Made by a program: the position numbers and the translations under genes. DNA of 64,000 nt, from assembly GCF_900177665.1 (NCBI RefSeq), contig NZ_FXAW01000001.1, positions 372,001 through 436,000 of the forward strand, read 5' to 3'. The DNA comes from Marivirga sericea (lineage in GTDB: Bacteria > Bacteroidota > Bacteroidia > Cytophagales > Cyclobacteriaceae). Below, in pieces: positions 4,371 through 28,176 of the stretch. Position 1 is the stretch's first letter. Each line of letters starts with the position of its first letter. The notes beneath the pieces are model-generated. The model did no database searches and was not told the origin of the DNA. It worked only from the letters and a program-made list of their open reading frames with translations.

Positions 4371-4402
4371 AAGCCTTAAATCTTATGATTTAGGGCTTTT
4401 TT
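4371..4402 (+). terminator. Rho-independent terminator after tRNA-Arg
   Basis: Stem AGCCTTAAATC/GATTTAGGGCT with a TTAT loop and a following T run. It lies inside the island, so it was brought in with the left end to replace the original tRNA terminator now found at 28275-28308. Confidence 0.75.
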
Positions 4403-4444
4403 GTTTTATTTGATTCATATAATACCAACGAATATCAAATAAAA

Positions 4445-4573
4445 TGTGCCCTATTTGTGCCCTAATCTATTATTACTAAATTGGGGCACAAAATCAGGTT
4501 AATGTGGTTTAACTATATTTTAACTCACTTTATCTGATACTTTATTAATTGTTGTCGTCATTTGTTGTGCCCC
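4445..4573. repeat. Arm-type integrase repeats, left end
   Basis: Copies of TTGTGCCC(C) or close variants occur at about 4445-4451, 4455-4462, 4565-4573 and, inverted, at 4483-4491. The 18-bp block TGTGCCCTATTTGTGCCC at 4445-4462 is repeated exactly at 28177-28194 near the right end. Short repeats shared by both ends and flanking the core sites are typical arm-binding sites for tyrosine integrases. Confidence 0.65.
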
Positions 4574-4618
4574 TTTTGTTGCTCAAAACTGTAATGTTTA
4601 AATCATTAATTAAATGTT

Positions 4619-5857
4619 ATGAGCAACTCATTCTCAGTACGGTTTATACTGAAAAAGTATAAAGCAAAAAACGGAAAAGCACCTATTTACATTAGGTTAA
4701 CTCACAATGGAAAACATTGTGACAGTTCATTAAAAAGAAAGATTCCAGTAGAAAAATGGAATACTAATCAGAGAGTTTCTGGAACTTCTATAGAAGTTCG
4801 AAAGCTTAACAGATATCTTGATCAGATCTATAATAAAGCTTTTGAAATCTTTGAGAATTTGCAGTTAAAAGATGAATTCATCTCAGCAGAAATCATCCGA
4901 AACAAACTATTCAACCTAGAGGAAGAACAGCAAATTACACTGCTCTCAGCTTCAAAGTATCACTATGACCAAAACATCAATAATTTTTCAACAGGAACCT
5001 TAAAGCACTATAAAGTGACAGAGCGCTACTTTGAAAGGTTCTTAAGCGCCAAAAAGAATCTTTCAGATATAGCCATCGAGAAAGTCGACTATAAGTTTCT
5101 ACTTGATTTCGAAGCATTTTTGAGAGCTTGGAAACCAAAAGACCATCAAAAACCAATAGGTCATAATGGGATAATGAAACACATGTGCAGGTTTAGAAAG
5201 GTGTTGAATTATGCTTACAAAATGGACTGGATAGCCGATACCCCTTTTAAGAAATACCATATCTCCTATGAAAAATCAACAAGAACCTATCTAACAGAAG
5301 AGGAATTGTCAGCAATTGAGGTAAAGGAATTGGATATTGCAAGACTAGAACAAATCAGGGATATATTTATTTTCAGCTGCTATACAGGGCTTTCTTATAT
5401 TGACCTATTCAATTTAAGCAAAGATCATATTGTAATTGGAATTAATGGAGAAAAATGGATCCAATATAAACGTCAGAAAACCTCCACCCCATTCTCTGTT
5501 CCTTTATTACCAAAAGCACTTGAATTGATTGAAAAATATGAAGATCATCCCAAGGCTCAAGAAAACCAATTATTGCCAGTGGTTTCCAATCAAAAAACAA
5601 ATGCATACTTAAAGGAAATAGCTGATATTTGCGGAATCAAAAAGCAGCTAACATTTCACATTGCAAGGCATACATTCGCTACCACAGTTACTTTAACTAA
5701 TGGTGTTCCAATGGAAACAGTCAGCAAAATGTTAGGCCATACCAAATTATCAACCACTCAAATCTACGCCAAGGTAGTAGAGAATAAAATCGGTACTGAC
5801 ATGGCAGCACTTCAGGAAAAGCTTTCAAATTCAGAACAGATGAGAAAGGCAGACTAA
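4619..5857 (+). CDS. Tyrosine-type site-specific integrase
   Basis: A 412-residue recombinase of the Bacteroidota phage-integrase type. Residues about 1-90 form the arm-binding domain, 110-210 the SAM-like core-binding domain, and 215-400 the catalytic domain. Visible catalytic residues are a Lys near RQKTSTPFSVPL, the box HIARHTFA (HxxRH), the His of LGHTKLSTT and the nucleophile Tyr in QIYAKV. The first catalytic Arg of the family is Ser here (TGLSYIDL), as in IntDOT of CTnDOT. It lies next to attL and reads into the island. It should catalyse integration and, with the HTH protein at 7915-8184, excision. Confidence 0.95.
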   Translation: MSNSFSVRFILKKYKAKNGKAPIYIRLTHNGKHCDSSLKRKIPVEKWNTNQRVSGTSIEVRKLNRYLDQIYNKAFEIFENLQLKDEFISAEIIRNKLFNLEEEQQITLLSASKYHYDQNINNFSTGTLKHYKVTERYFERFLSAKKNLSDIAIEKVDYKFLLDFEAFLRAWKPKDHQKPIGHNGIMKHMCRFRKVLNYAYKMDWIADTPFKKYHISYEKSTRTYLTEEELSAIEVKELDIARLEQIRDIFIFSCYTGLSYIDLFNLSKDHIVIGINGEKWIQYKRQKTSTPFSVPLLPKALELIEKYEDHPKAQENQLLPVVSNQKTNAYLKEIADICGIKKQLTFHIARHTFATTVTLTNGVPMETVSKMLGHTKLSTTQIYAKVVENKIGTDMAALQEKLSNSEQMRKAD

Positions 5858-6068
5858 TCTGCCTTTCTTTTACAATAAATCACCAAATCAAATCGTAATG
5901 ATAAGGCAAAATAGTTGTATTAATTTATTGTGATTTATCAACATTTGTATAATATTGCAGTCAAATAGTACTACTTATTATTGTTTAAAATCAATAATAT
6001 TTCAGCCAAATTGAACCACTACCCAAGACAATAAAAGTATATTCTAAAACTAAAACCTTTGGCTTAAA

Positions 6069-7280
6069 TTGAGATATGAACTACAGAAGTTTGATGACTT
6101 CGTCTCAAACTATTTATCTTCGGAAAACAACAAACAACTATCAACATCCGAGTTTCATCAGTGGAAACAAACTTTTATTAAAGAGCAAGAAAGAATCCAG
6201 AACGCTTTTATGGCCTTGGCTTTCAGTAATAATGATGACAAAATCATTGAACGCCAAATTCAGCTCTATCAAAACAAACTGATTCTACTTTCAAATGAGT
6301 TATCAAAGCACATCGGTTCTCAGGTAAATACTGAGGAAAATGTGGTTGCTGATAATGATCTACATTCTAGATTATTGATAGAACTTTTAAAATGCCTTAC
6401 GGCATTGTTAACCTTTATTGAAAAGCACTTTACAAAATACTTCTGTCAGGACAGCATCATTTCTGCATCTTATTTTGAAACATCAAAATCCATCCTCCTC
6501 AATAAACTAATAGGGATAAAAGAACAAAGCCTCAAAAAGAAATTAGACCCGAAACTTTTAAGAATCATTCACTATCACATGAAAAACTATATTGATTCGC
6601 CCAAAGGCTCATCATATAGAAAATTCATTTATTGTAAAACCTTTATTGCAGAAATACACAACATCGTATCTTCCAGCCTTTTAGGCTTAAAACTCGAAAA
6701 GCAATTGATTGTAAACCTGATATATCTGAACTTTAATGTTTATGCTTTCTACAGTTATCTTGGCAAACGGATAATCAAACACTATCAGTCAAAATCAACA
6801 TATCAAGAGCAATTAATTTGTCTCAAACGATTCAAAAAATTAATACAACAATCTCAAATTAAACCTGATTTTGAATTTAATCAAGGAGTTGAAAGTCTTA
6901 AAAATACTTTGTCCAAATGGATTGAAGAGGAAATTTCTTTCTTTAAAGAACGTAGGCAATTGGCCATACAGTTTAAAGAAAAATCCTCTCGAAAAAATCT
7001 ACCTGCAAAAAATACTGATAAAATCTATAGTAATTTGTCTGTAGCTCAGTTAACCTATTTAATGAAGTTGATGGCTAATGCCAAAATATTCACACCTGAG
7101 AGCTTATCTCATCTTGTGAATTTCATCTCCTATAACTTTTCAACGGCTGGTCAAAAGAGCTTATCCAGGAAGAGTGTCAGGAATAAAATGTATTCAATAG
7201 AAGCTAACACAATTGATAATATTCAACAATTGATGGAGGCATTAATTGAGCAGGCTGAAAGTGACAAAGAGTTGCTTTAG
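6069..7280 (+). CDS. RteC-like regulator
   Basis: A 403-residue protein that resembles RteC, which in CTnDOT-type elements activates excision genes. The recognisable part is about residues 105-245: LLKCLTALLTFIEKHF, then LRIIHYHMKNYI and a long helical stretch. No earlier in-frame start is possible, because a stop lies at 6051-6053, so translation must begin at the TTG at 6069 (LRYELQKF) or much later at codon 48. It is convergent with the small gene at 7277-7507 and overlaps it by 4 bases. A rare start codon suits low expression. The RteC assignment rests on pattern memory; a purely structural hypothetical protein is the alternative. Confidence 0.6.
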   Translation: MRYELQKFDDFVSNYLSSENNKQLSTSEFHQWKQTFIKEQERIQNAFMALAFSNNDDKIIERQIQLYQNKLILLSNELSKHIGSQVNTEENVVADNDLHSRLLIELLKCLTALLTFIEKHFTKYFCQDSIISASYFETSKSILLNKLIGIKEQSLKKKLDPKLLRIIHYHMKNYIDSPKGSSYRKFIYCKTFIAEIHNIVSSSLLGLKLEKQLIVNLIYLNFNVYAFYSYLGKRIIKHYQSKSTYQEQLICLKRFKKLIQQSQIKPDFEFNQGVESLKNTLSKWIEEEISFFKERRQLAIQFKEKSSRKNLPAKNTDKIYSNLSVAQLTYLMKLMANAKIFTPESLSHLVNFISYNFSTAGQKSLSRKSVRNKMYSIEANTIDNIQQLMEALIEQAESDKELL

Positions 7281-7507
7281 GCCTCCTCATCCATAAACCT
7301 TTCCAACCCGTGATCTTCCAAAAAATTCAAGTATTCCAACAACATCCTTTTGGTAAATCCCTCTGTTTGGTCCAGCTTTTTTGTGCCAACGATTATGAAA
7401 TCTGACACAGTGAGTAATCCTTCCATTTGAGCAAATTCCTTGATTTCCGAACTGAAGTTCAATTCGGAAATGGAGTGATTCATTATGTTCAAAGAGGTGT
7501 TTTTCAT
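7277..7507 (-). CDS. Small protein, possible RNA polymerase alpha-CTD-like fold
   Basis: A 76-residue protein conserved in style with Bacteroidota mobile elements. The pattern ISELNFSSEIKEFAQMEGL, TVSDFI and LLEYLNFLEDHGL resembles the helix-hairpin-helix of the RNA polymerase alpha C-terminal domain. That would suit DNA or transcription-factor binding, but the match is weak. Its upstream region is the large hairpin at 7553-7667, so that structure may act in its leader RNA. Confidence 0.5.
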   Translation of the reverse strand: MKNTSLNIMNHSISELNFSSEIKEFAQMEGLLTVSDFIIVGTKKLDQTEGFTKRMLLEYLNFLEDHGLERFMDEEA

Positions 7508-7552
7508 GATCTTTCACACCCCGCTAAAAGTAGCGTGGGTTAGCAGCCCCAG

Positions 7553-7667
7553 GCACCACGGGAACCGCCAAGCTCCCAAACGCACGCTGAAAACTGCGCC
7601 CACGCATAGCGTGAGCGAACAGCTTCTAGTCGTGCGTCTAAAATTGAAATTGGCGGTTTCGTGGTGC
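7553..7667. repeat. Nested three-tier inverted repeat (115 bp)
   Basis: Outer arms GCACCACGGGAACCGCCAA (7553-7571) and TTGGCGGTTTCGTGGTGC (7650-7667) pair with one bulge. Middle arms are CGCACG/CGTGCG (7581-7586, 7631-7636) and inner arms CACGC/GCGTG (7601-7605, 7609-7613). The block is far richer in GC than its surroundings. It could be a single-strand origin, a transfer site or a leader RNA of the gene at 7277-7507. No gene occupies 7508-7914. Confidence 0.7.
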
Positions 7668-7824
7668 ACTATCTAAGCTTTCGCTTCAATATTTTTTTAC
7701 TTCGATATTTTCTGATGCAAATATAGGTATTTAAAATCTTTTAACCCTCCCCTAAATTATCCCTCTAAAATTTTTTTACATTTTTTTTACTGCCAAAATC
7801 GCTGTTTCCAGTAAATTGAAGGGG

Positions 7825-7856
7825 GTTGCAAGGGGGTTGTGCAACCCCCTTGCAAC
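7825..7856. repeat. 32-bp hairpin, 15-bp perfect arms
   Basis: Arms GTTGCAAGGGGGTTG and CAACCCCCTTGCAAC are separated by only TG. It stands 59 bases before the HTH start codon and also contains a direct repeat of GGGGGTTG. It is probably an operator or cruciform controlling the replication module. Confidence 0.7.
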
Positions 7857-7914
7857 TGGTTTGATATTCCTCATTTTCCCAGCTTTGTCCCGACAACAAA
7901 AACAACTAAAATTT

Positions 7915-8184
7915 ATGGCAGCAGAAGTAATCACAACAGACGACTTGCACGAGTTCAAATTGGAACTTGTGGACGAATTCAGAAAGCTCCTTTCGGAGCA
8001 AAAAGGGGTTTCAACCAAAAAATGGTTGAAATCCGATGAGGTTAGAAAACTCCTGGGTATTAGTCCTGGTACGCTTCAAAACCTCAGGGTAAACGGCACC
8101 TTGCCATTCACCAAAATGGGCGGGGTTTTATACTACGATTCTCAGGACATTCACAGCATTTTGGAACAAAACAAAATAAGCTGA
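7915..8184 (+). CDS. Excisionase-like helix-turn-helix protein
   Basis: An 89-residue protein. A helical N-terminal segment (residues 1-30) is followed by a MerR/Xis-type HTH: WLKSDEVRKLLGISPGTLQNLRVNGTLPFTKMGGVLYY, which reads tool-box style DNA recognition plus wing. The frame is open further upstream to 7816, but that part would run through the hairpin at 7825-7856, so the ATG at 7915 is chosen. The stop and the next start share bases (TGATG), coupling it to the initiator. It is likely either the island's excision factor or a repressor of the replication operon. Confidence 0.8.
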   Translation: MAAEVITTDDLHEFKLELVDEFRKLLSEQKGVSTKKWLKSDEVRKLLGISPGTLQNLRVNGTLPFTKMGGVLYYDSQDIHSILEQNKIS

Positions 8185-9089
8185 TGGATACTCATGAAAA
8201 CTCAACACAGGAACCGGTGAATTTCATTCACCAGTTCCTATCAGCAATGGATAAAATTTCAGATACACCTGAAATGAATACCTCTCATGTCAGTCTCTAT
8301 ATTGGCTTGTTTACCATTTGGAATTATAGTCACTTCAAAAAGACTATCTCAATTAGTAGAAAAGATGTGATGAATATTTCAAGAATAGGCTCTAAGCACA
8401 CTTATTACAAATGTTTAAAAGACCTCCACCGAATGGGTTTTTTGAAATATTCCCCATCTCGCAATCCAATGATAGGTAGCTTAATAGAGATGACCACTTT
8501 CAGTACAAGTACTGAACAAGCAGTGAACAACCTTAGGGGCAATAATGAGACAAGTACTGCACTAGTTGGGGGCAAAAGTGGTACAAGTAGTGAACAAGTA
8601 CTGCACCAGCTTAGGGGCAAAAGTGGTACAAGCAGTGAACAAGTACTGCACCCTTACATAAACAATACAAACTATATAAACAATAAACAATATATATATG
8701 AAAAAAATAAAAATTCAGAAAAAGAAAAAACTAAAAGCAGCACAAATTCAAGAGCTTCAGCTCCAGTCTCGGATTCTGGCAAAAACGCATCACCAAAAGG
8801 TTCGCGTTTCACACCACCATCAAAAAAAGAGCTAAAAGCTTTTTTTGAACAGCAAACCGAAAAGTATTCTATTCCGGTTCGCTTAGCTCCCGTGGAGGCT
8901 GAAAAATTTTTCAATTATTATTCAGCAAAAGGCTGGAAAGTGGGCTCAAAATCGCCCATGAAAGATTGGAAAGCAGCAGTGCGAAACTGGCTCTTGAATT
9001 TTAAAAAATTCAATGGCTTTCAAAACGAGAAAAATGAAGCTGGCAAACTCCACAACAAAGAGGACAAAAGATATGACATACCGCTTTGA
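8184..9089 (+). CDS. Replication initiator-like protein with internal iterons
   Basis: A 301-residue protein. Residues about 30-100 look like a winged-helix replication-organizer domain (SLYIGLFTIWNYSHFKK, then SRKDVMNISRIGSKHTYYKCLKDLHRMGFL). Residues 105-160 are low-complexity, with a 15-residue repeat (GKSGTSSEQVLHQLR). The C-terminus (about 215-285) resembles the DnaD/phage replisome-organizer tail (FFNYYSAKGWKVGSK, DWKAAVRNWLLNF). The central repeat encodes four DNA iterons and is followed by an AT-rich stretch. The next gene is a DnaC-like ATPase, giving the initiator-loader order of lambda O-P and phage organizers. Origin melting and helicase loading for the excised island is the likely role. 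Confidence 0.65.
   Translation: MDTHENSTQEPVNFIHQFLSAMDKISDTPEMNTSHVSLYIGLFTIWNYSHFKKTISISRKDVMNISRIGSKHTYYKCLKDLHRMGFLKYSPSRNPMIGSLIEMTTFSTSTEQAVNNLRGNNETSTALVGGKSGTSSEQVLHQLRGKSGTSSEQVLHPYINNTNYINNKQYIYEKNKNSEKEKTKSSTNSRASAPVSDSGKNASPKGSRFTPPSKKELKAFFEQQTEKYSIPVRLAPVEAEKFFNYYSAKGWKVGSKSPMKDWKAAVRNWLLNFKKFNGFQNEKNEAGKLHNKEDKRYDIPL
8505..8745. other. Probable replication origin inside the initiator gene
   Basis: Four exact copies of ACAAGTACTG lie at 8505-8514, 8550-8559, 8594-8603 and 8639-8648, spaced 45, 44 and 45 bases. The first two copies are read in one codon frame (T-S-T) and the last two in another (Q-V-L), so the DNA sequence rather than the protein is conserved. From about 8655 to 8745 the sequence is almost pure A/T, which fits a DNA-unwinding element. 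Confidence 0.65.
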
Positions 9090-9108
9090 CATCCAAAGCA
9101 TCAACGCT

Positions 9109-9133
9109 GGAGGTCTCCGACCTCCACTTTTTT
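9109..9133 (+). terminator. Terminator or attenuator between initiator and loader genes
   Basis: Hairpin GGAGGTC-TCC-GACCTCC (9109-9125) followed by a T run. It lies 20 bases before the ATG of the AAA+ gene, so it may set the initiator-to-loader ratio by partial termination. Confidence 0.65.
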
Positions 9134-9152
9134 AATAAAAAACTCAAACCCA

Positions 9153-9791
9153 ATGCAACCAAAAAACTATTCTAGCAAGAAATTTCAATTCGAAAGATGC
9201 ATTGATTTCCTGCAAAAAGCAGGACAAACAGAATTTGGAAATCACTTTAAAGTTTACCGTGCTGACTATGAAATTATCTTCAAAATACTGGCGTATTTTT
9301 TCGAGGATGAAAAGCTCTGTGAGCAATACAAGCTTTCCATAAGAAAAGGACTTCTTTTGACTGGTCCCGTAGGCTGTGGCAAAACAACACTCATGATGCT
9401 CTTCCGCCACTTCCTCCACGCAGTCCACAAATACCCTGTTAAATCAACCAGAGAAATTTCTTACGAATTTCTAGACCATGGCTTTTCCATTATCAACAAA
9501 TATTCAAAAGCCCATTTCCAACGCTATCAAGACCAAATGGTACCTCGTACCCTTTGCCTCGATGACCTCGGCCTAGAATCCACTATCAAACATTTCGGAA
9601 ATGAAACTAACACAATAGCTGAAATACTTCTTAATCGCTATAGCCTTTTCACCTCCAGAGGAATGATTACCCATGCCACTACAAACTTAAATCCTGCTGA
9701 ATTAGAAAATCTCTATGGAAATAGAGTGAGGTCGAGAATGAGAGAAATGTTCAATTTGATTCCCTTTTCTTCAAATGACAAAAGGATTTAG
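9153..9791 (+). CDS. DnaC/IstB-like AAA+ ATPase, probable helicase loader
   Basis: A 212-residue ATPase. Walker A is GPVGCGKT (residues 71-78) and Walker B is LCLDDLGLE, typical of DnaC, DnaI and IstB proteins. A sensor-type stretch reads ITHATTNLNPAELENLYGNRVRSRMREM, with an arginine finger candidate in RVRSRM. It follows the initiator gene and probably loads the host replicative helicase at the island's origin. A broken second copy of its C-terminal third lies at 10811-10987. An IS21 IstB role is unlikely because no IstA transposase is adjacent. Confidence 0.8.
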   Translation: MQPKNYSSKKFQFERCIDFLQKAGQTEFGNHFKVYRADYEIIFKILAYFFEDEKLCEQYKLSIRKGLLLTGPVGCGKTTLMMLFRHFLHAVHKYPVKSTREISYEFLDHGFSIINKYSKAHFQRYQDQMVPRTLCLDDLGLESTIKHFGNETNTIAEILLNRYSLFTSRGMITHATTNLNPAELENLYGNRVRSRMREMFNLIPFSSNDKRI

Positions 9792-9897
9792 TTACGATTA
9801 ACGAAATCCTTTTAATTGTTAAGAAATTACAATAGTTTCATCTTAAAATTGTTGATGCAACTAAAAAACTTATGGCAATAGCAAAGGTTAGATGAAA

Positions 9898-10293
9898 TTA
9901 AGTGCTGAATAAGTGATTTTTATCCATTAAAAAATTTATCAGAACTATATATGCAATTATAAGTAGAACAATTTTTGCAACAAAAAAGAACCAAGTAGGA
10001 AAATTTAGTACTCTAGGATAATGAACATCATCTTCTGCCTGTTTAGCAGAGGTAATTCTCAGCAGAATCCCTATCATCACCGAGCCATAGATAAACTGCA
10101 TAAGATCAGATAGTAAAGCAAGACAAAAAATTAGCAAAGGTTTATACAAAATCTCGGGTAACTTAAACTCAGTCCCTTCATAAACTTTGAAGATCCAAAT
10201 TATTGCTATTCCAGCAAAACATAGCTGACGGCTAAGGTCACTTGCTTTGGTTGTAAAAACATCAAATGATTGACGTACATATTCTAATTTCAT
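9898..10293 (-). CDS. Four-helix membrane protein, unknown
   Basis: A 131-residue protein with hydrophobic segments at roughly 22-38, 45-75, and 100-122. No family recognised. It is transcribed towards the ATPase gene and starts exactly where the histone H1-like gene ends, so the two form an operon. Its role in the island is unknown; small membrane proteins encoded by islands are often toxins or superinfection factors, but nothing here shows that. Confidence 0.6.
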   Translation of the reverse strand: MKLEYVRQSFDVFTTKASDLSRQLCFAGIAIIWIFKVYEGTEFKLPEILYKPLLIFCLALLSDLMQFIYGSVMIGILLRITSAKQAEDDVHYPRVLNFPTWFFFVAKIVLLIIAYIVLINFLMDKNHLFST

Positions 10294-10496
10294 TAATACT
10301 TTTTTGGTCCTGTATTGTTACTATCATCCTCTTTTCGTGATTGAACTTCAATTCTGATTTCTTGTGCAAGATTTTTCAAATCTTGCATTCCTTTTCTTAT
10401 TCTAGTACCGGCAGCTTGATTTCCTTTATTATAGAACTTATCAAAGTCTTCTTCCAATGATAAAAGTAATTCTTTGATTGCTTCAAACCTTTTCAT
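10293..10496 (-). CDS. Histone H1-like (Hc1-type) DNA-binding protein
   Basis: A 67-residue basic protein. The pattern MKRFEAIKELLLSLEEDF, KFYNKGNQAAGTRIRKGM and QDLKNLAQEIRIEVQ is the Bacteroidota histone H1/Hc1-type family, normally 55-65 residues long. The family binds DNA and compacts the nucleoid. The tail (KEDDSNNTGPKKY) is less lysine-rich than usual. An island copy could act on island DNA or on silencing of the cargo. It shares its stop position with the start of the downstream membrane gene. Confidence 0.8.
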   Translation of the reverse strand: MKRFEAIKELLLSLEEDFDKFYNKGNQAAGTRIRKGMQDLKNLAQEIRIEVQSRKEDDSNNTGPKKY

Positions 10497-10810
10497 AATT
10501 TCTATTAATTTCTATTAAAATTAATAAATCCATCTAACAAATGCTAAAATGAATATGCATACATAGTTTTCTCCAAATTCTAGTTTTAGTATTATTCTAG
10601 CAAATGAGCTTCATATTCTTTTTTGCTGGGCATTAACTATGCCTTGTATCCATTCCCTTTTTTGTTTTATTTATTTCTTCCATCATTTTACTGTTTCCAA
10701 GTATTTTACAAATGCCTTGAAACCTACAAATCCTCTAAATTGGGAAAATAATAGAATTAAAACATTGCTATCACAGTCTCCTTCCCTTTTGGAGAAGGAT
10801 TAAGGATGGG
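10497..10810. other. Non-coding stretch with a Bacteroidota-type intergenic repeat
   Basis: No gene is seen. At about 10777-10810 there is a purine/pyrimidine palindromic block, CTCCTTCCCTTTTGGAGAAG followed by GATTAAGGATGGGG. Blocks of this style are scattered between genes in many Bacteroidota genomes. Here it abuts the truncated ATPase copy, so it may mark the break point. Confidence 0.5.
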
Positions 10811-10987
10811 GCTAATACCCTAGTCGAAATCATCCTCAATCGTTACAATCTTTGCATCAACAGAGGAATTATAACACAAACCACCATAAACTTGAACCCT
10901 GACCACCGAAAAAGCTTTAGAGTTAGATCAAGGATCAGAAAAATGATTAATTTAGTCCCATTTCAATCATCTGATAAAAGAACTTAA
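10811..10987 (+). pseudogene. Truncated DnaC-like ATPase (C-terminal third only)
   Basis: The conceptual translation ANTLVEIILNRYNL, then INRGIITQTTINLNP and RVRSRIRKMINLVPF, ends SSDKRT plus stop. It parallels the C-terminus of the intact ATPase at 9153-9791 (NTIAEILLNRYSL, SRGMITHATTNLNP, RVRSRMREMFNLIPF, SNDKRI). Walker A and B are missing, so it cannot work alone. It indicates that the island once held, or has absorbed part of, a second related replication module. Confidence 0.8.
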
Positions 10988-11130
10988 TGAGTCCAATCCT
11001 TATTGGTTTATCGCATTTTGTTGGAAACTCATCAAAAATTTTTATTAATATATATTATCCACTAATTTGACACTTTGAATATTAACAATGTTGATATTCA
11101 ATTTTAATTATTTCATCGTAGTTTGTAATT

Positions 11131-12168
11131 ATGTCAATTTTAAGTAAAAAGCGTGAAATTAATCGACTCATCAAATCTTTCGAAAGCGAAGCAGATCAGT
11201 ATCATGACATTGACTTTCATATTTATACTATAAACCAATCGCAAAGCACTATTAACAGGAAGTTTCGAAGACCAAATCATGGTATAATGTTATGGCAATA
11301 CATTGGCGAATTAGGCTCTGATAAGGCATTGACCGAATTTACTGAGAATCTACAAGACAGTGATCTCAAATGGGGTGTCAGAGGAGCAAAATTGACCAAA
11401 TACGGTATAATTGAAGGACAAGGCACAATTCAGTTTTTAAAAATGGCAAAACGTGCTGGTTCTTTATTTAGCGAGTCTGAAACAATGAAATTTAAATCAA
11501 GAGTGTTTCAAGAGATTCAGGACGATGAATTAAGAAAAAATCCAAAATCGAAACCAACCGTAGCTACAAATGACAATCCATTAGCCATTTGGCTGAATTA
11601 TCTGTTATACTTCATATCAAAGAATAATCCGTATCGACAATACTCAACAAAAATAGAACCAGATCTTTTTACTTTGTCTTTGCTAGCATTAGAAAAAATG
11701 GTAGAAGATGAAACACCTAACAAATCAGATAAATCATCAACGAAGTTAACTGATATTAATTTCAAAGTTGCTGTGTCATTTCCAGGAGAGAAAAGAAGGT
11801 ACGTTTCCAGTGTAGTTGATAACTTAAGAGCCCAATTAGGCAAAGACAAAATTTTCTATGATTTCGATTATCAAGCACAAATTGCACGTCCTAATGCTGA
11901 TGTTCTTTTACAAGATATCTATCATAAGCAATCAGAGTTGATTGTAGTCTTTCTATGTCAGGAGTACTCTCAAAAAGACTGGTGTGGTTTGGAATGGAGA
12001 GGCGTTCGTGACTTAATAAAAGCCAAAGAAGATGACAAAATTATGTTTGTGAGATTTGATAATGCAGAAATCGATGGTGCTTTTTCCATAGATGGCTATA
12101 TTGATGGAAATATATTCCAGCCTAAAGAAGTAGCAAGCTTCATTATTGAAAGAATTAACATTCTCTAA
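11131..12168 (+). CDS. TIR-domain protein, candidate antiphage effector
   Basis: A 345-residue cytoplasmic protein. The C-terminal domain (about 210-345) is TIR-like. It starts FKVAVSFPGEKRRYVSSVV, continues KIFYDFDYQAQ, VLLQDIYHKQSELIVVFLCQEY, and has the conserved QKDWCGLEW in which Glu288 is the expected NADase catalytic residue. The first 190 residues are a helical domain I do not recognise, with GVRGAKLTKYGIIEGQGTIQF. TIR proteins in bacterial islands usually degrade NAD+ or make cyclic ADP-ribose signals after phage detection. It has its own 340-base upstream region and is followed 257 bases later by an envelope protein, which may or may not be a partner. Confidence 0.8.
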   Translation: MSILSKKREINRLIKSFESEADQYHDIDFHIYTINQSQSTINRKFRRPNHGIMLWQYIGELGSDKALTEFTENLQDSDLKWGVRGAKLTKYGIIEGQGTIQFLKMAKRAGSLFSESETMKFKSRVFQEIQDDELRKNPKSKPTVATNDNPLAIWLNYLLYFISKNNPYRQYSTKIEPDLFTLSLLALEKMVEDETPNKSDKSSTKLTDINFKVAVSFPGEKRRYVSSVVDNLRAQLGKDKIFYDFDYQAQIARPNADVLLQDIYHKQSELIVVFLCQEYSQKDWCGLEWRGVRDLIKAKEDDKIMFVRFDNAEIDGAFSIDGYIDGNIFQPKEVASFIIERINIL

Positions 12169-12425
12169 TGAATGCTTAAAAATCTGTGTTAAAGTTCTTA
12201 AATGCTGCAATTTTCAATAAAGTAAACTGAGAAGTATTTAATTTAAGGACCATTCCAGTCTGATCTTAAAAATTAAAATTTTAATTACTTTTTATTAATA
12301 ACAAATTCTACTAACTTATTTATCAAAGACATGTGGCTAACTCTAAATACACTTCTTACCTATCAATAACGTGTAAATGATATATCAGTTAGAGCTAGTC
12401 GATAATTTAACCAAACCACCTGAAG

Positions 12426-14753
12426 ATGAAAAATCTTTCTTTATTAATAGTACTATTCATTTCATTTAAGACCTTTTCCCAAAGTCCAGTTTCACCAAAT
12501 CTTACTATCGGAGCTGGAAAAGTCCTTTTTGAAAAAGGACAACTGGACAGTGAACTAATAGCAGAAATAGTTTCTACAAAACAGGATGAGGTAAAAACCC
12601 AACTAACCAAAAACTTAATAAATAAATACTTAAGCAACAGTAATCTAGCGTTAAAAACCTTTGTTGCAAATAATCTTGATCTATTATTCAGTGAATCTTC
12701 AAAAGATATCAAAAAGAAAGAACTCCTTAAAAATTCAGCAGAATTGGCTGTCACAATGGGTTTTGCAGAATATTTTTTAGGAGATTTATCTAATAGGACA
12801 AATCAGTTTTTTAAAGAACAGAGAAATTATGATTTGAAGCTAGATAAAGACTTCAAAAGTGAAATAATAAAACGCGAAGAGCTAGAATTTCTTTTCGAAT
12901 ATATGCGAAATCTAAGTTTAGACTCAAGAGTAATTTTCTTTCATTACTTCTTTGGAAGCATGGACATCAAGATAGATAAATCTGGCAATTTGAACGATCA
13001 AAGATATGACCAGTTCATTTTATCGGTAGAAAATCACCAGAACGACCTTTCTAACATCACAGATTTAAAGGAATCGGTTAGGTTTAAAAAAGATAAAGAG
13101 TTTTACGATTCGCTTTCTTTAAGATCAAAAATATATTTCAGTTCGTCTTACTATTCAGTCAAAGGTTTTAGTAAATACGATCCAAGGCTTTTTACCCAAA
13201 ACCCTGAGAAGATTAAGAAAACTAACACTGAAAAAAATGCATTCAAATTTATAAGTTCACAAAGCTCTGACAATGATCAATACAAATATTTGATCAAGCC
13301 AAATTTACTCTCAATTTTTAAAAATGAACAAGACTTTGCATCTGAAAAATCAGGCGACTTCACTAGCCCTAACCATATTTATATTGATCTTGTATACGAA
13401 ACTCTCAGAAGTAATGAGAAAATAAAACAATTAGGTTTTTTTCAGAGAGAAAGAAACGAGTCCCATGCCAATTCTCGCTACATGTTTCTTAAAAGTGTCA
13501 AAAGCCATACTTTTAAAGAATATTTTGAGCCGCTTGAACAAATTATTTCTAACAAAATTGATGTCCTTATTATCTATTATGAATTGGCTCAAACTGTGCT
13601 TCATGAAGTCAAAACAAACCCTGACATAGTTAAAATGTATAAACAAGGTATCGAAAAAGATAAAACGCTGCAGCTAACGAAGGAATTAAATTTACTCAAA
13701 GAAAAAATAATAACAGCAAATTCTGATGTCCAAATTCCAGACCAAGAAAAAGCCTTCCTTAAAGAGCTAATGCAAAATCTTTCTCAAATTGAATATGAAA
13801 CATCTGTCCTAAATAACTATGTTAATTATTTCAGATCGGCTGTTATCCCCACTATTACTAGCTTTAGATTCAGCAACAATGCTTACCGAGAAATCTTGAT
13901 TCAAGCTGATAGCGTCTATACAGGTCTGCGGCAGGTTGGTATATCTAGGACATTTGAATTAGTTGGAATAAGTGATAATGATTTCTCCACTGAATACATT
14001 TCTAATGTTTGCAAAATAGATTCCGCGATGGAGTCTTTTAAACCGTACCTCACTCTACTCCAATATTTGGGTAGTTTAGATCAGGCCACAACTTATGATC
14101 GTATTTTCAAATTTATCGCTGACTTAGGTGATATAGCTAATAATCAAGAATCTCAAAAAATAATTAACACAATGGTTAATTATTTTGATAAGTATGCTTT
14201 GGTTAATGAGGAAAGTAATAGTATTCAAGTTGATTTAGAGGGCATTACTTCAGAATTATATAGTAGATATCAAGAAAATCTCAACAGTAGATTTTCTTTA
14301 ATGTTTACTGTTGGAATTAATACAGCTACACCTTGGGTCAAAGATTCTCAACTAAGTTTTTTAAAAGACAGTACAGGAATCTCTCCTTCAAGTGCCTCTT
14401 TTGTAAGTGAAAAAATAGGTTTTAGGTTTAATGTATTTGATTTTGCAAGAAAAAGCTCTACCAAGGGTGGAGCATATACACCTATACTAAATGACATTCA
14501 CATATTAGGTTACTTTTCTGGTCTCTTATATCAAATAGATGCTTTAAATAGTGTTAATGGTTTCGATAAAACTACTTTTGGTCTTGGAATCGGAACAACA
14601 TTTTTTAATGATCTATCATTTAACTTATCATATGCTGGGGCTGTTAGTTCTTGGAATAAAAGTAATTATATAAACATTGGGTTTGATATTCATATAACAG
14701 AGTATCTAAATCAATTAAATAAGCGTAGAAAAGAAAAAAAACTTGCAAAATAA
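12426..14753 (+). CDS. Large secreted protein with C-terminal barrel-like region, unknown
   Basis: A 775-residue protein with a signal peptide (residues 1-18, LLIVLFISFKTFSQS). Residues about 20-620 are mostly helical and charged. From about 630 on, the pattern changes to short beta strands (SRFSLMFTVGINTATP, FGLGIGTTFFNDLSFNLSY, NYINIGFDIHI), as in a small outer-membrane barrel or barrel fragment. It ends in a basic tail. I recognise no family. It stands alone between the TIR gene and a 630-base gap. A surface role, for example blocking phage adsorption, is speculation. Confidence 0.65.
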   Translation: MKNLSLLIVLFISFKTFSQSPVSPNLTIGAGKVLFEKGQLDSELIAEIVSTKQDEVKTQLTKNLINKYLSNSNLALKTFVANNLDLLFSESSKDIKKKELLKNSAELAVTMGFAEYFLGDLSNRTNQFFKEQRNYDLKLDKDFKSEIIKREELEFLFEYMRNLSLDSRVIFFHYFFGSMDIKIDKSGNLNDQRYDQFILSVENHQNDLSNITDLKESVRFKKDKEFYDSLSLRSKIYFSSSYYSVKGFSKYDPRLFTQNPEKIKKTNTEKNAFKFISSQSSDNDQYKYLIKPNLLSIFKNEQDFASEKSGDFTSPNHIYIDLVYETLRSNEKIKQLGFFQRERNESHANSRYMFLKSVKSHTFKEYFEPLEQIISNKIDVLIIYYELAQTVLHEVKTNPDIVKMYKQGIEKDKTLQLTKELNLLKEKIITANSDVQIPDQEKAFLKELMQNLSQIEYETSVLNNYVNYFRSAVIPTITSFRFSNNAYREILIQADSVYTGLRQVGISRTFELVGISDNDFSTEYISNVCKIDSAMESFKPYLTLLQYLGSLDQATTYDRIFKFIADLGDIANNQESQKIINTMVNYFDKYALVNEESNSIQVDLEGITSELYSRYQENLNSRFSLMFTVGINTATPWVKDSQLSFLKDSTGISPSSASFVSEKIGFRFNVFDFARKSSTKGGAYTPILNDIHILGYFSGLLYQIDALNSVNGFDKTTFGLGIGTTFFNDLSFNLSYAGAVSSWNKSNYINIGFDIHITEYLNQLNKRRKEKKLAK

Positions 14754-23207: not shown

Positions 23208-24071
23208 ATGAAAACTCAACTAACCTTATTTTTATCATTACTAGTATTTTCACTTTCAGCTCAAATCCCCGAAGGCTATTATGAAACCACAGCTGGTCTA
23301 GATGGTGAAGAGTTAAAAGCAGAACTACACGAAATCATTAACGATCATGTAGTTTACACCTACACAAGCTCCAATACCGATACTTGGGACATCCTCAAAC
23401 AAACCGATAAAGACCCGGAAGACGGAAGCTATGTAATTGGCTTCTATTCAGGTTTCAAAATGGATGCATCTGAAGAATACAACAGTGGTAATGGCTGGAA
23501 CAGAGAGCATGTTTGGGCTAAAAGCCGTGGCAGTTTAGGCACAAACAGAGGTCCAGGAACTGACGTTCATAACCTACGAGCTGCAGACATTTCAACTAAC
23601 TCAGCTCGCAACAACCGCAATTTTGATGAAGCCACAGTTCAATACATAGATGAATCAGGTCAATACCAAGGAGAAACAGAAAGCTACACAAGCTCCTCAG
23701 ATTGGATATGGGAACCAAGAGACGAAGTAAAAGGAGATGTAGCAAGAATCCTTTTCTACATGGCCACTCGCTATGAAGGAACCAGCGGTGAACCTGATTT
23801 AGAATTAAGAGAAGAATTATTAAGTGATGATAGCAACGACCCCTACCACGCTCGACTTTCAGTCTTGCTCGAATGGCACGAAGCAGATCCAGTAGATGAA
23901 ATAGAAAGAGAAAGAAATGATGTCATCTATTCTTTTCAAGAAAACCGCAATCCCTTTATAGACCACCCAGAATTTGTAGGCCTAATCTGGGGAGGAGAAG
24001 AAGCAGACGATATGGTGTGCTGCACTTGGGCTGCGGCAAAGGGTCTCGCCAGCATTGGCTTCAGGCTTTAA
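23208..24071 (+). CDS. Secreted endonuclease I (EndA/NucM family)
   Basis: A 287-residue secreted nuclease. The signal peptide covers residues 1-19 (LTLFLSLLVFSLSAQ). The active-site segment NGWNREHVWAKSRG has the His of the beta-beta-alpha-metal fold, and the metal ligands lie in GPGTDVHNLRAADISTNSARNN. Helix FYMATRYEG is typical. These enzymes cut DNA without sequence preference outside the cytoplasm, for nutrient use or against incoming DNA. The family normally ends near HPEFVGLIWG. Here about 25 further residues (from EEADDMVCCTW) are encoded by the left arm of the first large hairpin of the structured tract, so the 3' end was probably rewritten by insertion of that tract. Confidence 0.9.
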   Translation: MKTQLTLFLSLLVFSLSAQIPEGYYETTAGLDGEELKAELHEIINDHVVYTYTSSNTDTWDILKQTDKDPEDGSYVIGFYSGFKMDASEEYNSGNGWNREHVWAKSRGSLGTNRGPGTDVHNLRAADISTNSARNNRNFDEATVQYIDESGQYQGETESYTSSSDWIWEPRDEVKGDVARILFYMATRYEGTSGEPDLELREELLSDDSNDPYHARLSVLLEWHEADPVDEIERERNDVIYSFQENRNPFIDHPEFVGLIWGGEEADDMVCCTWAAAKGLASIGFRL

Positions 24072-24730
24072 ATAAGTGTTGCTTTATAAGGTATTTAAAG
24101 CCAAAAGCCAACCCCTTCGGGGCAAGTGCTGTCATGCCCCTTGCAGCTTAGCCCAAGTGCATCACGGCAACCTACCTGGTCTGTTCCTTTAAAATTCCGT
24201 AAACTCCATTTAAAAGGAACAGCCCCCGGTTGCCAGAGTTAGGCTCGCCTGCGGGCGCCCCCGGGCTGCGGCTTGTCATGGTTTTTAAAAAAAAGCTGTT
24301 AGTATTTAATTGGAAAACGGTTACAGCTTTTTTTAACTAAAAACCACGCCAAGCCTTGTTCGCTCCGTTACTCTCCGCTCGTGGCTAGCCCCCGTTTCCT
24401 GCGGTCACTCTCGGTCTACCACCCGGGGTCGCACTCGCAGACGGCTCGACACACAGCGGATTGCAAACCATTCCGTAAACTCCATTATTTGCAACCGCTC
24501 TTCCTGCGTTCACCTTCCCACATCTTCCCGCATGGTGCCTTGATCAAACTGTAGTGCCAATACGATAGGACGGCATTCCACATCCATTCCCAACTTCCAC
24601 ACCACCCGTTTAAGGTGCGGCTTTAGACCACATTGAGTTTGCCCCAGGAATTTGGATAAACTTCGATTGGAATTTTGCAGGTAAATATTTCTTCAAAAAT
24701 TAAATAAAAGAGGAAAGCAAATTAGGGATC

Positions 24731-24831
24731 AATTGCTTTTTCGGCCGCAAGTCCAAGCCCGTTGGGTTTTTTGAAAAATCTCCACCGCAAGCGGTTGTAT
24801 TTTCCAAAAAAGACTTGCCCCCGAAGCAATT
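24731..24831. repeat. Long hairpin H6 with CCGCAAGCGG tip
   Basis: Stem AATTGCTT/AAGCAATT, then CAAGTC/GACTTG, then T6/A6 and AAAAT/ATTTT, topped by CCGCAAGCGG. The 28-bp apical block 24776-24803 is repeated exactly at 25200-25227 in the tip of H8. Confidence 0.7.
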
Positions 24832-24848
24832 CCCCCTGAAAGAAAAGC

Positions 24849-24879
24849 TTTCTCTTTTCTTTTTTTTTCTTTTCTCTTT
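24849..24879. repeat. 31-bp perfect homopyrimidine mirror repeat
   Basis: Only C and T occur, and the sequence reads the same in both directions on one strand: C at 24852, 24854 and 24859 mirrors C at 24876, 24874 and 24869 around a central run of nine T. Such mirror repeats can fold into intramolecular triplex (H-DNA). Confidence 0.85.
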
Positions 24880-25133
24880 TGAAAATATTTCCCTTGGGTC
24901 TGTGCGTTAGTGAGCGGTTGCATTTCATAGCTCAATTCAAATAAATAGGATTCCGCAAATAGTTCTTTTTAAGAAAATTGTGCGCTGAAATTATTATTAT
25001 AATCAGGATTTCTGATAAGAAATTGAAGCGAGATAAGGTAGTATTTCATAGCTAGATTTTGCAGTATAAGCACAATTTGCAAAAGGCTCTTTACCAGCTT
25101 TCCTGCGTCAGGACAGTAGAAAAATCAATCCAA

Positions 25134-25281
25134 ACATAGTGAAAATTACAGGCATGCGGATGAGAAAGATGCAAGAGTTCGCTTTGCCGGCTACAAAAAA
25201 AATCTCCACCGCAAGCGGTTGTATTTTTTTTGTGCCGCTCTTGCATCTATCTCACCGGTCCTGTGTGGATGCGCACTATGT
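25134..25281. repeat. Very long hairpin H8 (148 bp)
   Basis: Nested pairing: ACATAGTG/CACTATGT, ACAGG/CCTGT, a 17-base arm TGAGAAAGATGCAAGAG (25161-25177) against 25238-25254 with one mismatch, then ACAAAAAAAAT/ATTTTTTTTGT and the CCGCAAGCGG tip. Its outer right arm overlaps GATGCGCACT of the alternative hairpin 25268-25307, so the two folds exclude each other. Confidence 0.75.
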
Positions 25282-25449
25282 TTAAATTAATTTTTAGAGT
25301 GCGCATCGCCAGCCGGTGGTTGGTGGCGTACGTTCGTCTTCGTCCAGCGTTTAGTTTAACGCGGTTTAGTGTTCAGTCTGAAGGTTATTATTTCCTTCGG
25401 TTTTTGTGGTTTGAGATTAATTTCTCGCCATTGCCGTTTTAGTTTTATT

Positions 25450-25482
25450 GCCTGGTGGGTTTAGCCTGCCAGGCTTTTCTTT
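25450..25482 (+). terminator. Rho-independent terminator closing the structured tract
   Basis: Stem GCCTGG/CCAGGC with a 13-base loop, followed by TTTTCTTT on the + strand. Confidence 0.65.
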
Positions 25483-25600
25483 CATGATATCATTAAGAAC
25501 CTAAGGTAGTAGAACGAATTAGGGTATCAGTCCCAAATACCAACAGTCAAGGTTGGATATTAAGCCTTTACAGTTCTCAAAATTTTTCTTAAATTAAGGC

Positions 25601-26032
25601 ATGAAATACATTATATTTATTATTCTATCTCTAATAAGTACATCGATATTCTTTGGTGCTTTGGAATTATTATTTGAATTCCTTCAAGGTTTAGGTTTAA
25701 TATGGAAAATTGTTTCTCTTGTAATAATAGCACTTCTTTTCGCATGGAGAATTATGGTTTTAGTACCATCATTAATAAATGGATTTTTACTCTTACTAGT
25801 AAAAGATAAATCATTTGGTAAAGGGGTTTTAAATAGTTTTAATGTAATAGGAGCGATTAGTACATCAGTGATAATATGGCAGAAAAGTGACCTTAGTACT
25901 GCATCAATTATTAATAACTTAATTTTTACTGTTATACTTCTTATTTATATTAATGAAGTCTACAAAATATTGGCCATTTCAGCTAACACCCAAGAAGTAC
26001 TAGCTTCGGAAAATAGACAAAAAAAACCGTAG
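25601..26032 (+). CDS. Four-helix membrane protein, unknown
   Basis: A 143-residue protein, almost entirely membrane-embedded: hydrophobic segments at about 2-24, 35-60, 85-100 and 105-123. The C-terminus is cytoplasmic and charged (NTQEVLASENRQKKP). No family recognised. It lies between the structured tract and the convergent lysis-like cassette. It is AT-rich in codon use like the other island genes. Confidence 0.55.
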   Translation: MKYIIFIILSLISTSIFFGALELLFEFLQGLGLIWKIVSLVIIALLFAWRIMVLVPSLINGFLLLLVKDKSFGKGVLNSFNVIGAISTSVIIWQKSDLSTASIINNLIFTVILLIYINEVYKILAISANTQEVLASENRQKKP

Positions 26033-26045
26033 CTATAAACTACGG
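26027..26045 (-). terminator. Terminator of the minus-strand cassette
   Basis: Stem CCGTAG/CTACGG around CTATAAA. On the minus strand it is followed by a run of T (seen as A7 before 26027). It serves the DUF5675 operon and overlaps the last codons of both convergent genes. Confidence 0.65.
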
Positions 26046-26218
26046 CCTTTCTTATTGATTTTCTTGACCACCCATTTCATGGCCAAGGACATACAAAAAC
26101 TAACTAATGCTCCGACAGCTGCCAAAATGCAAGTCTTGATAATATCAGCACTTTGCAGATTGACCAGCACGGTGAGCAATGTTCCCCCAGCTGTGCCCGC
26201 CTTACCGTGGACTTGCAT
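26033..26218 (-). CDS. Small holin-like membrane protein
   Basis: A 61-residue protein with one clear membrane segment (TCILAAVGALVSFCMSLAM) and a lysine-rich end (KKINKKGRSL). Its start lies within the last codons of the DUF5675 gene (17-base overlap), so it is translationally linked. One membrane helix with a basic tail next to a peptidoglycan-related protein suggests a holin or anchor, as in Bacteroidota cassettes of this type; not proven. Confidence 0.55.
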   Translation of the reverse strand: MQVHGKAGTAGGTLLTVLVNLQSADIIKTCILAAVGALVSFCMSLAMKWVVKKINKKGRSL

Positions 26219-26864
26219 CTCCTTTGTTTTTTACCTCAGGCAGTGGAGGAATTTTGACCTCATCATCCACTGTCACCTGACTGACCGCAGTCAGGACACT
26301 GGCGCCAACGGTCAGATATCCTGCAACTGTGATTAAGCCAGCTGGCAAAGTGATGGGCGCTCCTAAAATAGCACCTCCTGCAGCTGCCAATATCAAACCG
26401 ACTGTCCGCAATTTTCTAAACAATTTTGGAGTGGGCTTTTTCACCCTTTCTAAAATATTCATAGTTGATTTCTCTTTAATAGTGATGTATATATGATTCT
26501 GTTCCTCTTGAGCCTCTTCAAAGACTTCTAAAAGCCTATCCATGGCTTCACCCGATCGGATTCCTTTTCCTATTCCTGTCAGCTCCGAGACTGGTGCAAT
26601 GCAGCCTTCTAGTTCTGTTCGCGCATCATTCGCAGGATGGATTAAAATCCAACTCCTTCCAGGAACGCTCTTCAATATCAGATGGAATCCCCTTTCATGG
26701 GTAATCCTCTTTTCCATTAGATATCTCCCCTCAGGGATACAACTAATAAAAGGCTGATTCTCTTTCCACGGAAGTTCAATGGTATGGCAGATTTTTTCAC
26801 TGCCATACCTTAAAATTCCATTTGTTCCGCCTGACCTATAATATCGAATAAGTTCAAAACTCAT
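26202..26864 (-). CDS. DUF5675 family protein with C-terminal membrane region
   Basis: A 220-residue protein. Residues 1-135 match the DUF5675 pattern: LRYGSEKICHTIELPWKENQPF, CIPEGRYLM, then ILIHPANDARTELEGCIAP, with His and Cys placed as in L,D-transpeptidase-like folds. Residues about 150-195 contain a hydrophobic stretch (LILAAAGGAILGAPITLPAG), and the tail is polar. It starts 9 bases after the upstream gene. The family is common in Bacteroidota prophage and mobile regions. A cell-wall role is inferred from the fold only. Confidence 0.75.
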   Translation of the reverse strand: MSFELIRYYRSGGTNGILRYGSEKICHTIELPWKENQPFISCIPEGRYLMEKRITHERGFHLILKSVPGRSWILIHPANDARTELEGCIAPVSELTGIGKGIRSGEAMDRLLEVFEEAQEEQNHIYITIKEKSTMNILERVKKPTPKLFRKLRTVGLILAAAGGAILGAPITLPAGLITVAGYLTVGASVLTAVSQVTVDDEVKIPPLPEVKNKGDASPR

Positions 26865-27644: not shown

Positions 27645-27825
27645 AATTGAAAAATATATTTGATGAGCAGGCAAAGTATTCTCTCAAATAGCGTTTGTCA
27701 AAAACTGACTTCCGTCAAAGGTCATGTTGTCTTAATTGGTAATTATTGTCGGTATAGCTTTCAAGAAATTGGCTATATTAGTGTATAGCATCCTTATGGA
27801 TACAGTATAGATAAAGTATGAAGTA

Positions 27826-28023
27826 ATGATATTAAAAAGAACCGTCATATACCCAAAGGATATTCAGCGCATAACAGGTAAGAGCGAACGCACCGGAAGA
27901 AGGTTATTAGAGAAGATTCGGGAGAAAAGAGGAAAAGAAAAACACCAGCTCATAACAGTTTCCGAGTTCGCAGATTACACTGGAATAGATGCTGAAACAG
28001 TCCAAGAATACCTCACAGATTAA
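27826..28023 (+). CDS. Small DNA-binding-like protein
   Basis: A 65-residue basic protein: VIYPKDIQRITGKSERTGRRLLEKIREKRG, then QLITVSEFADYTGIDAETVQEYL. The first helix pair looks like a helix-turn-helix and the second half like a short winged or coiled helix. Similar small proteins are common in Bacteroidota genomes. It lies 230 bases from attR, where a second excision factor might sit. The regulatory role is a guess. Confidence 0.6.
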   Translation: MILKRTVIYPKDIQRITGKSERTGRRLLEKIREKRGKEKHQLITVSEFADYTGIDAETVQEYLTD

Positions 28024-28176
28024 GCCAAATATTTAGGTTCTAATCCAGAAATTTCTCGCCTTTTATTCATAAAATTTGCCCTTTTTTGCGTATATTTAAT
28101 ATATCAAAGAAGAGTTCTTTGGCAGTTTTAGCTTCAAAAGTAGCCTACAAATGGCGGTTATTTCAAATAAATAATT

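Follow-up and report, generated by a model that had tools for sequence, protein, structure and literature searches.

What is a hairpin-dense tract of some 1.45 kb doing in the genome of Marivirga sericea, and on which strand, and as which nucleic acid, does it fold? The tract lies in the window that we analyzed, a stretch of 64,000 nucleotides (nt) from contig NZ_FXAW01000001.1 (positions 372,001 to 436,000 of the forward strand), and positions below count from its first letter. The original prediction, made from the letters alone, placed at 24022 to 25482 a tract with at least seven strong hairpins, a shifted base composition, no credible gene and a closing terminator, and suggested either a new large structured RNA or a single-stranded DNA element. 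We conclude that the tract is probably the conserved hairpin part of a cargo-carrying and presumably mobile module of Bacteroidota. Its most informative piece is a hairpin that we call R1, which has a second family member, R1b, further along the tract (Table 1). We lean, by a modest degree, towards reading both as hairpins that work on single-stranded DNA, as single-strand promoters of the cargo module.

A composite tract with conserved hairpins

Much of the initial description holds. Hairpins are dense across 24011 to 25482, with RNA folding z scores of -7.54 for 24011 to 24960 (none of 20 shuffles as good) and -6.79 for 25090 to 25482 (none of 100), vs -0.2/-0.3 and -2.9/-1.6 on the two strands of two control stretches from neighboring genes. 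The raw folding energy of the tract is lower on the minus strand, and the z scores of both strands are similar. The G+C fraction is 0.52 at 24000 to 24499 vs about 0.30 upstream, a terminator-like hairpin does close the tract, and 23900 to 26100 holds 11 terminator-like sites vs 2.0 in shuffles; in the same region, a search for sigma-70-type promoters found 7 sites vs 4.9 in shuffles. No family among the 4227 models of Rfam 15 reached its gathering score in the tract, the sole match above cut-off in the window being a transfer RNA (tRNA) elsewhere. A permissive scan of the tract gave 15 matches, all below threshold and 10 of them to microRNA models, six R1 loci had no Rfam match, and ARAGORN found no transfer-messenger RNA in the window.

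Two points need correction. The tract does contain a gene candidate, an open reading frame (ORF) of 54 amino acids (aa) whose length is unchanged in 16 of the 17 copies examined. The left edge of the tract is not that of the element: copies elsewhere begin about 276 nt further 5' than the tract's left edge, and in the window the endonuclease I ORF (stop at 24071) extends into the tract. The tract is composite, comprising in order a hairpin array (T1), the R1 hairpin, a near-empty cargo slot, the second R1-family hairpin, the 54-aa ORF and the terminator.

Homologs of R1 are present in many genera, and their stems carry clear compensatory changes. Two of the three observations named beforehand as refuting the original prediction, a lack of homologs and a lack of such changes, are thereby contradicted. 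An initial set of 13 sequences (24704 to 24885 and relatives) gave 43 pairs, 12 of them with two-sided changes, and across 48 distinct rows compensatory change is found in 36 of 43 R1 pairs. The covariation score, computed on an alignment that had been fitted to the structure, is 0.366 vs 0.129 (standard deviation, 0.006) for shuffled and at most 0.127 for slid structures. A covariance model, also named R1, matches 39 of 395 Bacteroidia genomes and 31 of 197 genera, the source genome included. A second model, R2, matches 27 of 395 genomes of the phylum, again counting the source genome; it was built from 49 rows, namely 44 R1 sequences (43 distinct), four antisense matches and one second-hairpin match. 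R2 also recognizes the antisense of R1, more weakly than the sense. No report of the family appeared among the titles and opening lines of abstracts in the literature on structured RNA, triplexes, H-DNA and single-strand promoters.

Wobble pairs point to the minus strand

If a sense RNA were under selection, G-U pairs should be tolerated on the plus strand. The opposite pattern is seen in T1, where 13 full-length copies have A-C at 14 positions and G-U at none; the part of T1 present in the window has A-C at 8 positions and G-U at 1. For R1 we used a strand-neutral test, in which 49 sequences were realigned with MAFFT and wobble cells were counted at pairs that are common to the folds of both strands and at least 60% Watson-Crick. 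This yielded 63 A-C and 21 G-U cells, or 52 and 22 once the nine window-type copies were left out. RNase P RNA, taken through the same pipeline (30 loci returned from 45 genomes searched), gave 25 A-C and 154 G-U, which is the correct strand for this known RNA. Because A-C exceeds G-U in R1 while the pipeline reads RNase P correctly, R1 reads as a minus-strand fold. By this indirect criterion, R1 would form its stem-loop on the template strand of the downstream gene.

A -7-like box at the hairpin base

The same strand carries a promoter-like box. Anywhere in R1, TANNTTTG occurs on the minus strand in 27 of 43 rows vs 5.1 in shuffles, and on the plus strand in 1 of 43 vs 4.7. In 25 rows it starts at one and the same alignment column, at the hairpin base on the minus strand, and its two N positions vary. 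Nine more rows, the window among them, have TANNTTGY at that column, bringing the total to 34 of 43 vs 0.06 expected by shuffling; the other nine have neither box there. Both sequences are described for Flavobacterium psychrophilum in PMC9723704, TAnnTTTG as the -7 consensus of sigma-A and TAnnTTGY as the motif "SM5". In 40 of 43 rows the box arm also keeps a TTG; in the window a TTG lies, by eye, at 24748 to 24750 on the minus strand, 23 nt upstream of the TAATTTGC box. Bacteroides has a -33 TTTG according to PMC7366714, where no such element could be identified in Flavobacterium johnsoniae. The fitted structure places the -7 box largely between helices. The boxes read towards the hairpin base, a direction that in a duplex would lead away from the downstream gene.

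R1 has a further peculiarity at its base. Two mirror-related pyrimidine strands lie on its 3' side, one of them paired with the 5' purine strand. Where the variable purine is G, the third strand reads CTC in 16 of the 17 rows that could be called (L157, which departs from this, looks by eye like a miss of the pattern), and where it is A, the third strand reads TTC in 15 of 17. The Fisher p value of this association is 2e-6 with kinship disregarded, and nine of the 43 rows fall outside the table, seven with no callable third strand and two with another purine letter or a gap. A kinship-aware test has no power here, with two independent pairs on well-supported branches and six on all branches of a poorly resolved tree. 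A triplex at the R1 base is possible.

Genes beside R1

R1 sits close in front of genes. In 39 of 51 matches (one a duplicate, L141 being identical to L172), a sense ORF of 100 aa or more begins no further than 350 nt from R1, vs 6 of 51 on the mirror-image control side, and the median distance from R1 to a sense ORF of at least 50 aa is 48 nt. We sampled 20 flanked stretches from the better-scoring matches to the R1 model and scanned them with hidden Markov models (HMMs) built from the same 20 loci. A DUF6943-like gene lies 3' of R1 in 15 of them, DUF6266 or the P250 gene (Table 1) occurs in 16, a small gene in 12 and a tyrosine recombinase in 4. Pfam confirmed DUF6943 (PF22105) in all three proteins tested and DUF6266 (PF19781) in the one tested. 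Conversely, 6 of 20 loci seeded by P250 have an R1 match. Full-text searches gave no paper on DUF6266 or DUF6943 and two on DUF5675; searches for the DUF6943 protein in plasmids and for P250 in phages gave no match.

The cargo of R1 loci includes defense-related genes. In PADLOC, 6 of 10 cargo proteins matched (prokaryotic Argonaute, Old nuclease, CBASS E1-E2 and JAB, PDC-S73 and a capP-like protein) and 4 did not. Among 10 further proteins, three from one element in genome G002 matched (a methyltransferase, a weak restriction-like hit and a weak HNH), and the other seven, including the slot B ORF of the window, had no match.

Two contigs carry R1 more than once. On G110:C28, genes for TraM, DUF4138 and TraG share one strand; divergent from them, R1 occurs twice in the same orientation, in front of genes for DUF932 and RadC. 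On G239:C30 the hairpin occurs three times, likewise in a single orientation. The copies there precede genes for DUF932 and RadC and a 191-aa ORF of no family, and an N6-methylase/helicase protein is encoded between them along with E2- and ThiF-type genes; no tra gene was found among the five proteins tested. Leading regions commonly contain DUF932 and RadC genes. A different multiple arrangement occurs at L160 (G105:C1:47500-67000), where two R1-DUF6943-P250 modules form an inverted pair facing each other, about 5 kb apart.

A proposed route to early expression, and its rivals

How might such a hairpin work? A minus (template) strand without its partner, as in conjugative entry, would fold, and the folded 3' arm would present the -7 box (TAnnTTTG or TAnnTTGY) together with a -33-like TTG, both reading towards the base of the hairpin. 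From there host RNA polymerase could run into the 5' flank, still single-stranded, and so transcribe the gene to the right of R1. After synthesis of the second strand the boxes would point away from that gene and early expression would end. Of this scheme, the conserved structure, the minus-strand wobble polarity, the placement of the -7 box and the location in front of ORFs (among them the DUF932 and RadC genes of a contig with conjugation genes) are observed; that the module moves as a unit, is single-stranded when it acts, binds polymerase, is expressed early and leads genes against host defense is inferred. In the window-type Marivirga copies the led gene would have been replaced by a cargo slot (slot A), nearly empty in the window. 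Since no ORF stands behind the R1 of the window, and the two other copies in its genome (L010 and L011) have neither box, R1 may be decaying in this lineage or have been reused for slot A.

Several observations weigh against single-strand promoters. Transfer and transcription of the element, and with them an oriT, a relaxase and a single-stranded intermediate, are predicted. In the window, the 350 nt next to R1 contain no start of an ORF of 50 aa or more, and 3 of the 39 led ORFs noted above are doubtful, two (L060 and L062) running through the second hairpin and that of R1b being the slot B gene 300 nt away. The exact TAnnTTTG occurs in none of the nine window-type Marivirga R1 copies, six of which have TAnnTTGY and three neither, the latter including both other copies in the window's own genome; two rows from the genus, L065 and L066, are not of the window type, and L066 has the exact box. 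The spacing of TTG and box is irregular (20 to 22 nt in 20 of 43 rows, 30 to 38 nt in 23), and any TTG 17 to 23 nt linearly upstream is found in only 9 of 25 exact-box rows. The first wobble count for R1, on the model-fitted alignment, had the opposite sign (110 G-U, 31 A-C), though it was biased, with pairs picked by plus-strand energies and three pairs commonest as G-U; limited to pairs in the folds of both strands, the same alignment gives 5 G-U and 14 A-C. When the 13 Marivirga copies are taken by themselves, the two kinds of wobble are balanced in R1 (3 vs 3 positions), and wobble cells share ancestry, which makes their p values too small and indicative only. Tra genes were found on one of the two R1 contigs tested for transfer functions, and a DNA search of plasmids with R1 returned a single record, from Marivirga. 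Finally, a structural hint in favor is weak: the AlphaFold model of DUF6943 (predicted local distance difference test score, 87.5) has top PDB matches mostly in type I restriction specificity/methylase complexes (7eew, 7vs4 and 1ydx), which is suggestive of anti-restriction and no more, the match being weak (best E 1.8e-3, TM 0.33, none with E of 0.001 or below).

One contig deposited as a plasmid, G005:C2 (NZ_CP129969.1, 25320 bp), is near-identical to a chromosomal Marivirga region and has many broken ORFs; it may be an assembly artefact.

Could R1 instead act as RNA? One large sense RNA over the whole tract was set aside: in other genera T1 fragments stand upstream of R1 with cargo between the two, and differing genes follow R1. 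Between the two alternatives first offered for the tract, strand-neutral wobble together with the minus-strand box favors a single-stranded DNA element over one large sense RNA. A smaller RNA was our earlier favorite, namely a cis-acting 5' leader of the downstream gene in which a pyrimidine-motif triple helix, formed by the 5' purine strand with the two polypyrimidine strands, controls translation or mRNA stability. It would account for the position and sense orientation of R1 relative to ORFs (39 of 51), for compensatory change in 36 of 43 pairs, for the purine/third-strand match and for the G-U excess of the model-fitted count. We dropped it after the strand-neutral test, in which wobble runs the wrong way for a sense RNA and the right way for the RNase P control; the third-strand match, for its part, leaves rows uncallable and meets a kinship-aware test that is powerless. 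We now consider a leader RNA unlikely. Slightly less unlikely, to our minds, is transcription of the minus strand into one or more structured antisense RNAs with T1 and R1 as parts, which fits the minus-strand wobble of both and the lower raw folding energy of that strand (though the z scores are alike). The -7 box, however, faces outward from the left extremity of R1, and a transcript started from this box on double-stranded DNA would omit R1; moreover, in other genera sense-oriented cargo parts T1 from R1.

The remaining rival keeps the DNA and changes its function: T1 and R1 could be attC-like structured recombination sites bounding interchangeable gene cassettes, for which the bottom strand would likewise be the folded one. 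Cargo does vary on both sides, short repeats (TTTCATAGCT and AGCTATGAA) occur at slots A and B of several copies, and in at least 15 locus pairs homology starts about 10 nt or less from the 5' end of R1. A functional edge alone would explain the last point equally well, and other pairs start within R1 or, in the group of L159, L161, L162 and L164, reach further upstream. Most loci have a single R1 for the whole element, where sites of this kind should accompany every cassette. What lies 3' of R1 is for the most part the same gene (DUF6943 in 15 of 20), and tyrosine recombinases occur in 4 of 20 R1 loci. We regard this explanation as very improbable. It is tempting to go further than single-strand promoters at R1 and R1b and propose a Bacteroidota family in which the template strand rebuilds TTG and TAnnTTTG, carried by conjugative and defense-carrying elements and switching on DUF6943, DUF932, RadC and other early genes, probably for anti-restriction, while the element is single-stranded; the possible triplex at the base may set the switch from on to off at second-strand synthesis. 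To this wider claim we give a little less than even credence.

The element in Marivirga and its cargo slots

Features of the element in the window are collected in Table 1.

Table 1. Features of the hairpin tract and the adjoining element, in window positions
Feature	Position	Strand	Basis or remark
T1, GC-rich hairpin array	24011..24690	-	Also at two other places in the genome and in relatives; wobble asymmetry
Near-match to -7 box image in T1 (7/8)	24234		Box scan
R1 hairpin, putative single-strand promoter for rightward DNA	24704..24885	-	Covariance match of 164.5 bits (to a model whose rows include this very sequence), compensatory change, wobble polarity
TAATTTGC, -7-like box of the TAnnTTGY kind at the hairpin base	24717..24724	-	Window among the nine TANNTTGY rows
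Polypyrimidine mirror repeat, R1 3' side	24847..24885	+	Pairs with purine strand 24706-24718; possible triple helix
Slot A, near-empty cargo slot	24886..25075	.	Direct repeat ATTTCATAGCT in 24916-24937 and 25037-25058
R1b, second R1-family hairpin	25131..25301	-	Model R2, 66.9 bits, E 3.9e-9 (R2 includes one second-hairpin row, L057:8144-8314); overlaps start of 54-aa ORF
-7 box image in R1b (7/8 match)	25141		Box scan
54-aa ORF, MFKLIFRVRI...NFSPLPF	25278..25442	+	Constant length in 16/17 copies
Intrinsic terminator-like hairpin with T-rich tail	25450..25474	+	Terminator scan
Slot B cargo	25483..26016	.	Here a 143-aa ORF, 25601-26032 (+), no family match
DUF5675 gene	26202..26864	-	PF18925, E 1e-26
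P250, protein of about 256 aa	26874..27644	-	No Pfam, NCBIfam or PHROGs match; occupies the place of DUF6266 in some related loci
Right end of shared element	27645..28126	.	Several copies run on into double GTGTCC/GTGCCC-like repeats

The tract occurs at three places in its own genome, one of the window type and two interrupted, by about 8.8 kb and about 0.95 kb respectively, and it has matches in 12 of 59 genomes searched (own included) and 4 of 49 genera. Aligned copies share a common plan: a 5' arm of T1 and then R1, slot A, a 3' arm (second hairpin, 54-aa ORF and terminator), slot B, and a final part with the DUF5675 gene and the P250 gene (250 to 266 aa) on the minus strand. Slot A ranges from nothing to about 8.7 kb across copies and is bordered in several by a TTTCATAGCT-like repeat; slot B ranges from nothing to about 6.5 kb, its border in several copies being AGCTATGAA within a terminator-like hairpin. 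The C-terminal tail of the DUF5675 gene in the window matches the small-protein HMM; in other genera it is a separate small gene.

The 54-aa ORF has its usual length even in the diverged copy L058 and in L067, from another genus; the 17th 3' arm, L057, lacks its ATG motif. Its substitutions show only mild constraint (best omega-like value, 0.44). T1 has windows of low omega-like value, but several copies lack a start codon in the frame concerned, and we make no claim of coding there. Foldseek with the P250 model gave no informative match.

Does the element move? Between endonuclease I and mutS2, the site of the window copy, the interval is variable in other species. We sought a clean empty site at this locus and at two other upstream flanks and found variable islands and none that was clean; because the flanks examined are such islands, it is only indirectly that we infer mobility as a unit. 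On the L061 contig, the right end is followed by pieces of a tyrosine recombinase, a helix-turn-helix gene and a 243-aa gene. Integration directed by a tRNA, suggested by tRNA-like 3' ends, was discarded: in a scan of 40 loci, ARAGORN found no tRNA in the Marivirga loci, and two loci from other genera had tRNAs.

Cargo beside R1 in slot A is on the sense strand in L052, L053, L057 and L058, and not in L010 or L011. In L010 the slot (4700-13400) holds what by eye are sigma factor-like, FecR-like and TonB-linked receptor genes, and the same set adjoins the 3' arm in another species (L056, reverse complement, 2400-9800). Slot B of L053 (6900-13400) and of L055 (7000-12200), at different loci in two species, carries the same five-gene run, which suggests exchange of cargo between slots of different element copies. 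Upstream of the hairpins, several genera (L066, L069, L153 and L155; L010, L052, L055 and L062) have a gene set that we take to be mercury-resistance-like. About 0.5 to 2.7 kb 3' of R1 in L158, L165, L166 and L167, in the place held elsewhere by DUF5675, a short protein with a presumably HU-like stretch (KLTKADAGR or similar) lies beside a small membrane-like gene.

Significance and comparison with known systems

If hairpin promoters were usable on single-stranded DNA, an incoming element could activate genes at once. A Bacteroidota counterpart, with matches in 39 of 395 genomes, would then give a sequence handle on the genes that mobile elements need first, and DUF6943, DUF6266 and DUF5675 would become candidate establishment or anti-defense genes. 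A promoter that is active solely as one single strand is also a directly testable prediction.

Three known systems invite comparison, in each case with the parts of the cited papers that were consulted. Like ENE triple-helix RNAs, including that of a plant retrotransposon (PMC12501189), R1 combines pyrimidine-rich strands with a purine strand, potentially in a triplex, and belongs with mobile elements. The ENE uses the poly(A) tail of its RNA, however, whereas the strands of R1 are all internal and 5' of a gene, with wobble unfit for a sense RNA. The intrastrand triplex DNA motifs of bacteria (PMC4666352) are, similarly, purine/pyrimidine units that can fold as a single strand and are repeated in genomes; the motif characterized in that account differs from R1 in being G/C-rich, about 37 nt long, intergenic and not found with mobile elements, and the words "Bacteroidetes" and "Flavobacter" are absent from its consulted text.

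The closest parallel is Frpo/ssi of F, ColIb-P9 and related conjugative plasmids, whose stem-loops rebuild -10 and -35 boxes upstream of early genes, and early expression from single-stranded DNA has been described for F-type plasmids (PMC9849209 and PMC11541004). The main text of PMC11541004 contains no word beginning "Bacteroid" and neither of the names DUF932 and RadC. R1 differs from Frpo/ssi in its phylum, in its consensus (TAnnTTTG or TAnnTTGY vs TATAAT and TTGACA, a comparison by description and not by sequence), in having a polypyrimidine mirror repeat at its base and in residing mostly on contigs with no demonstrated conjugative nature. F itself has two copies of Frpo about 5 kb apart (PMC11541004, PMC9849209). 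With Frpo/ssi, R1 would share a stem-loop upstream of early, establishment or anti-defense genes, promoter boxes rebuilt within the stem, and transcription from a single strand.

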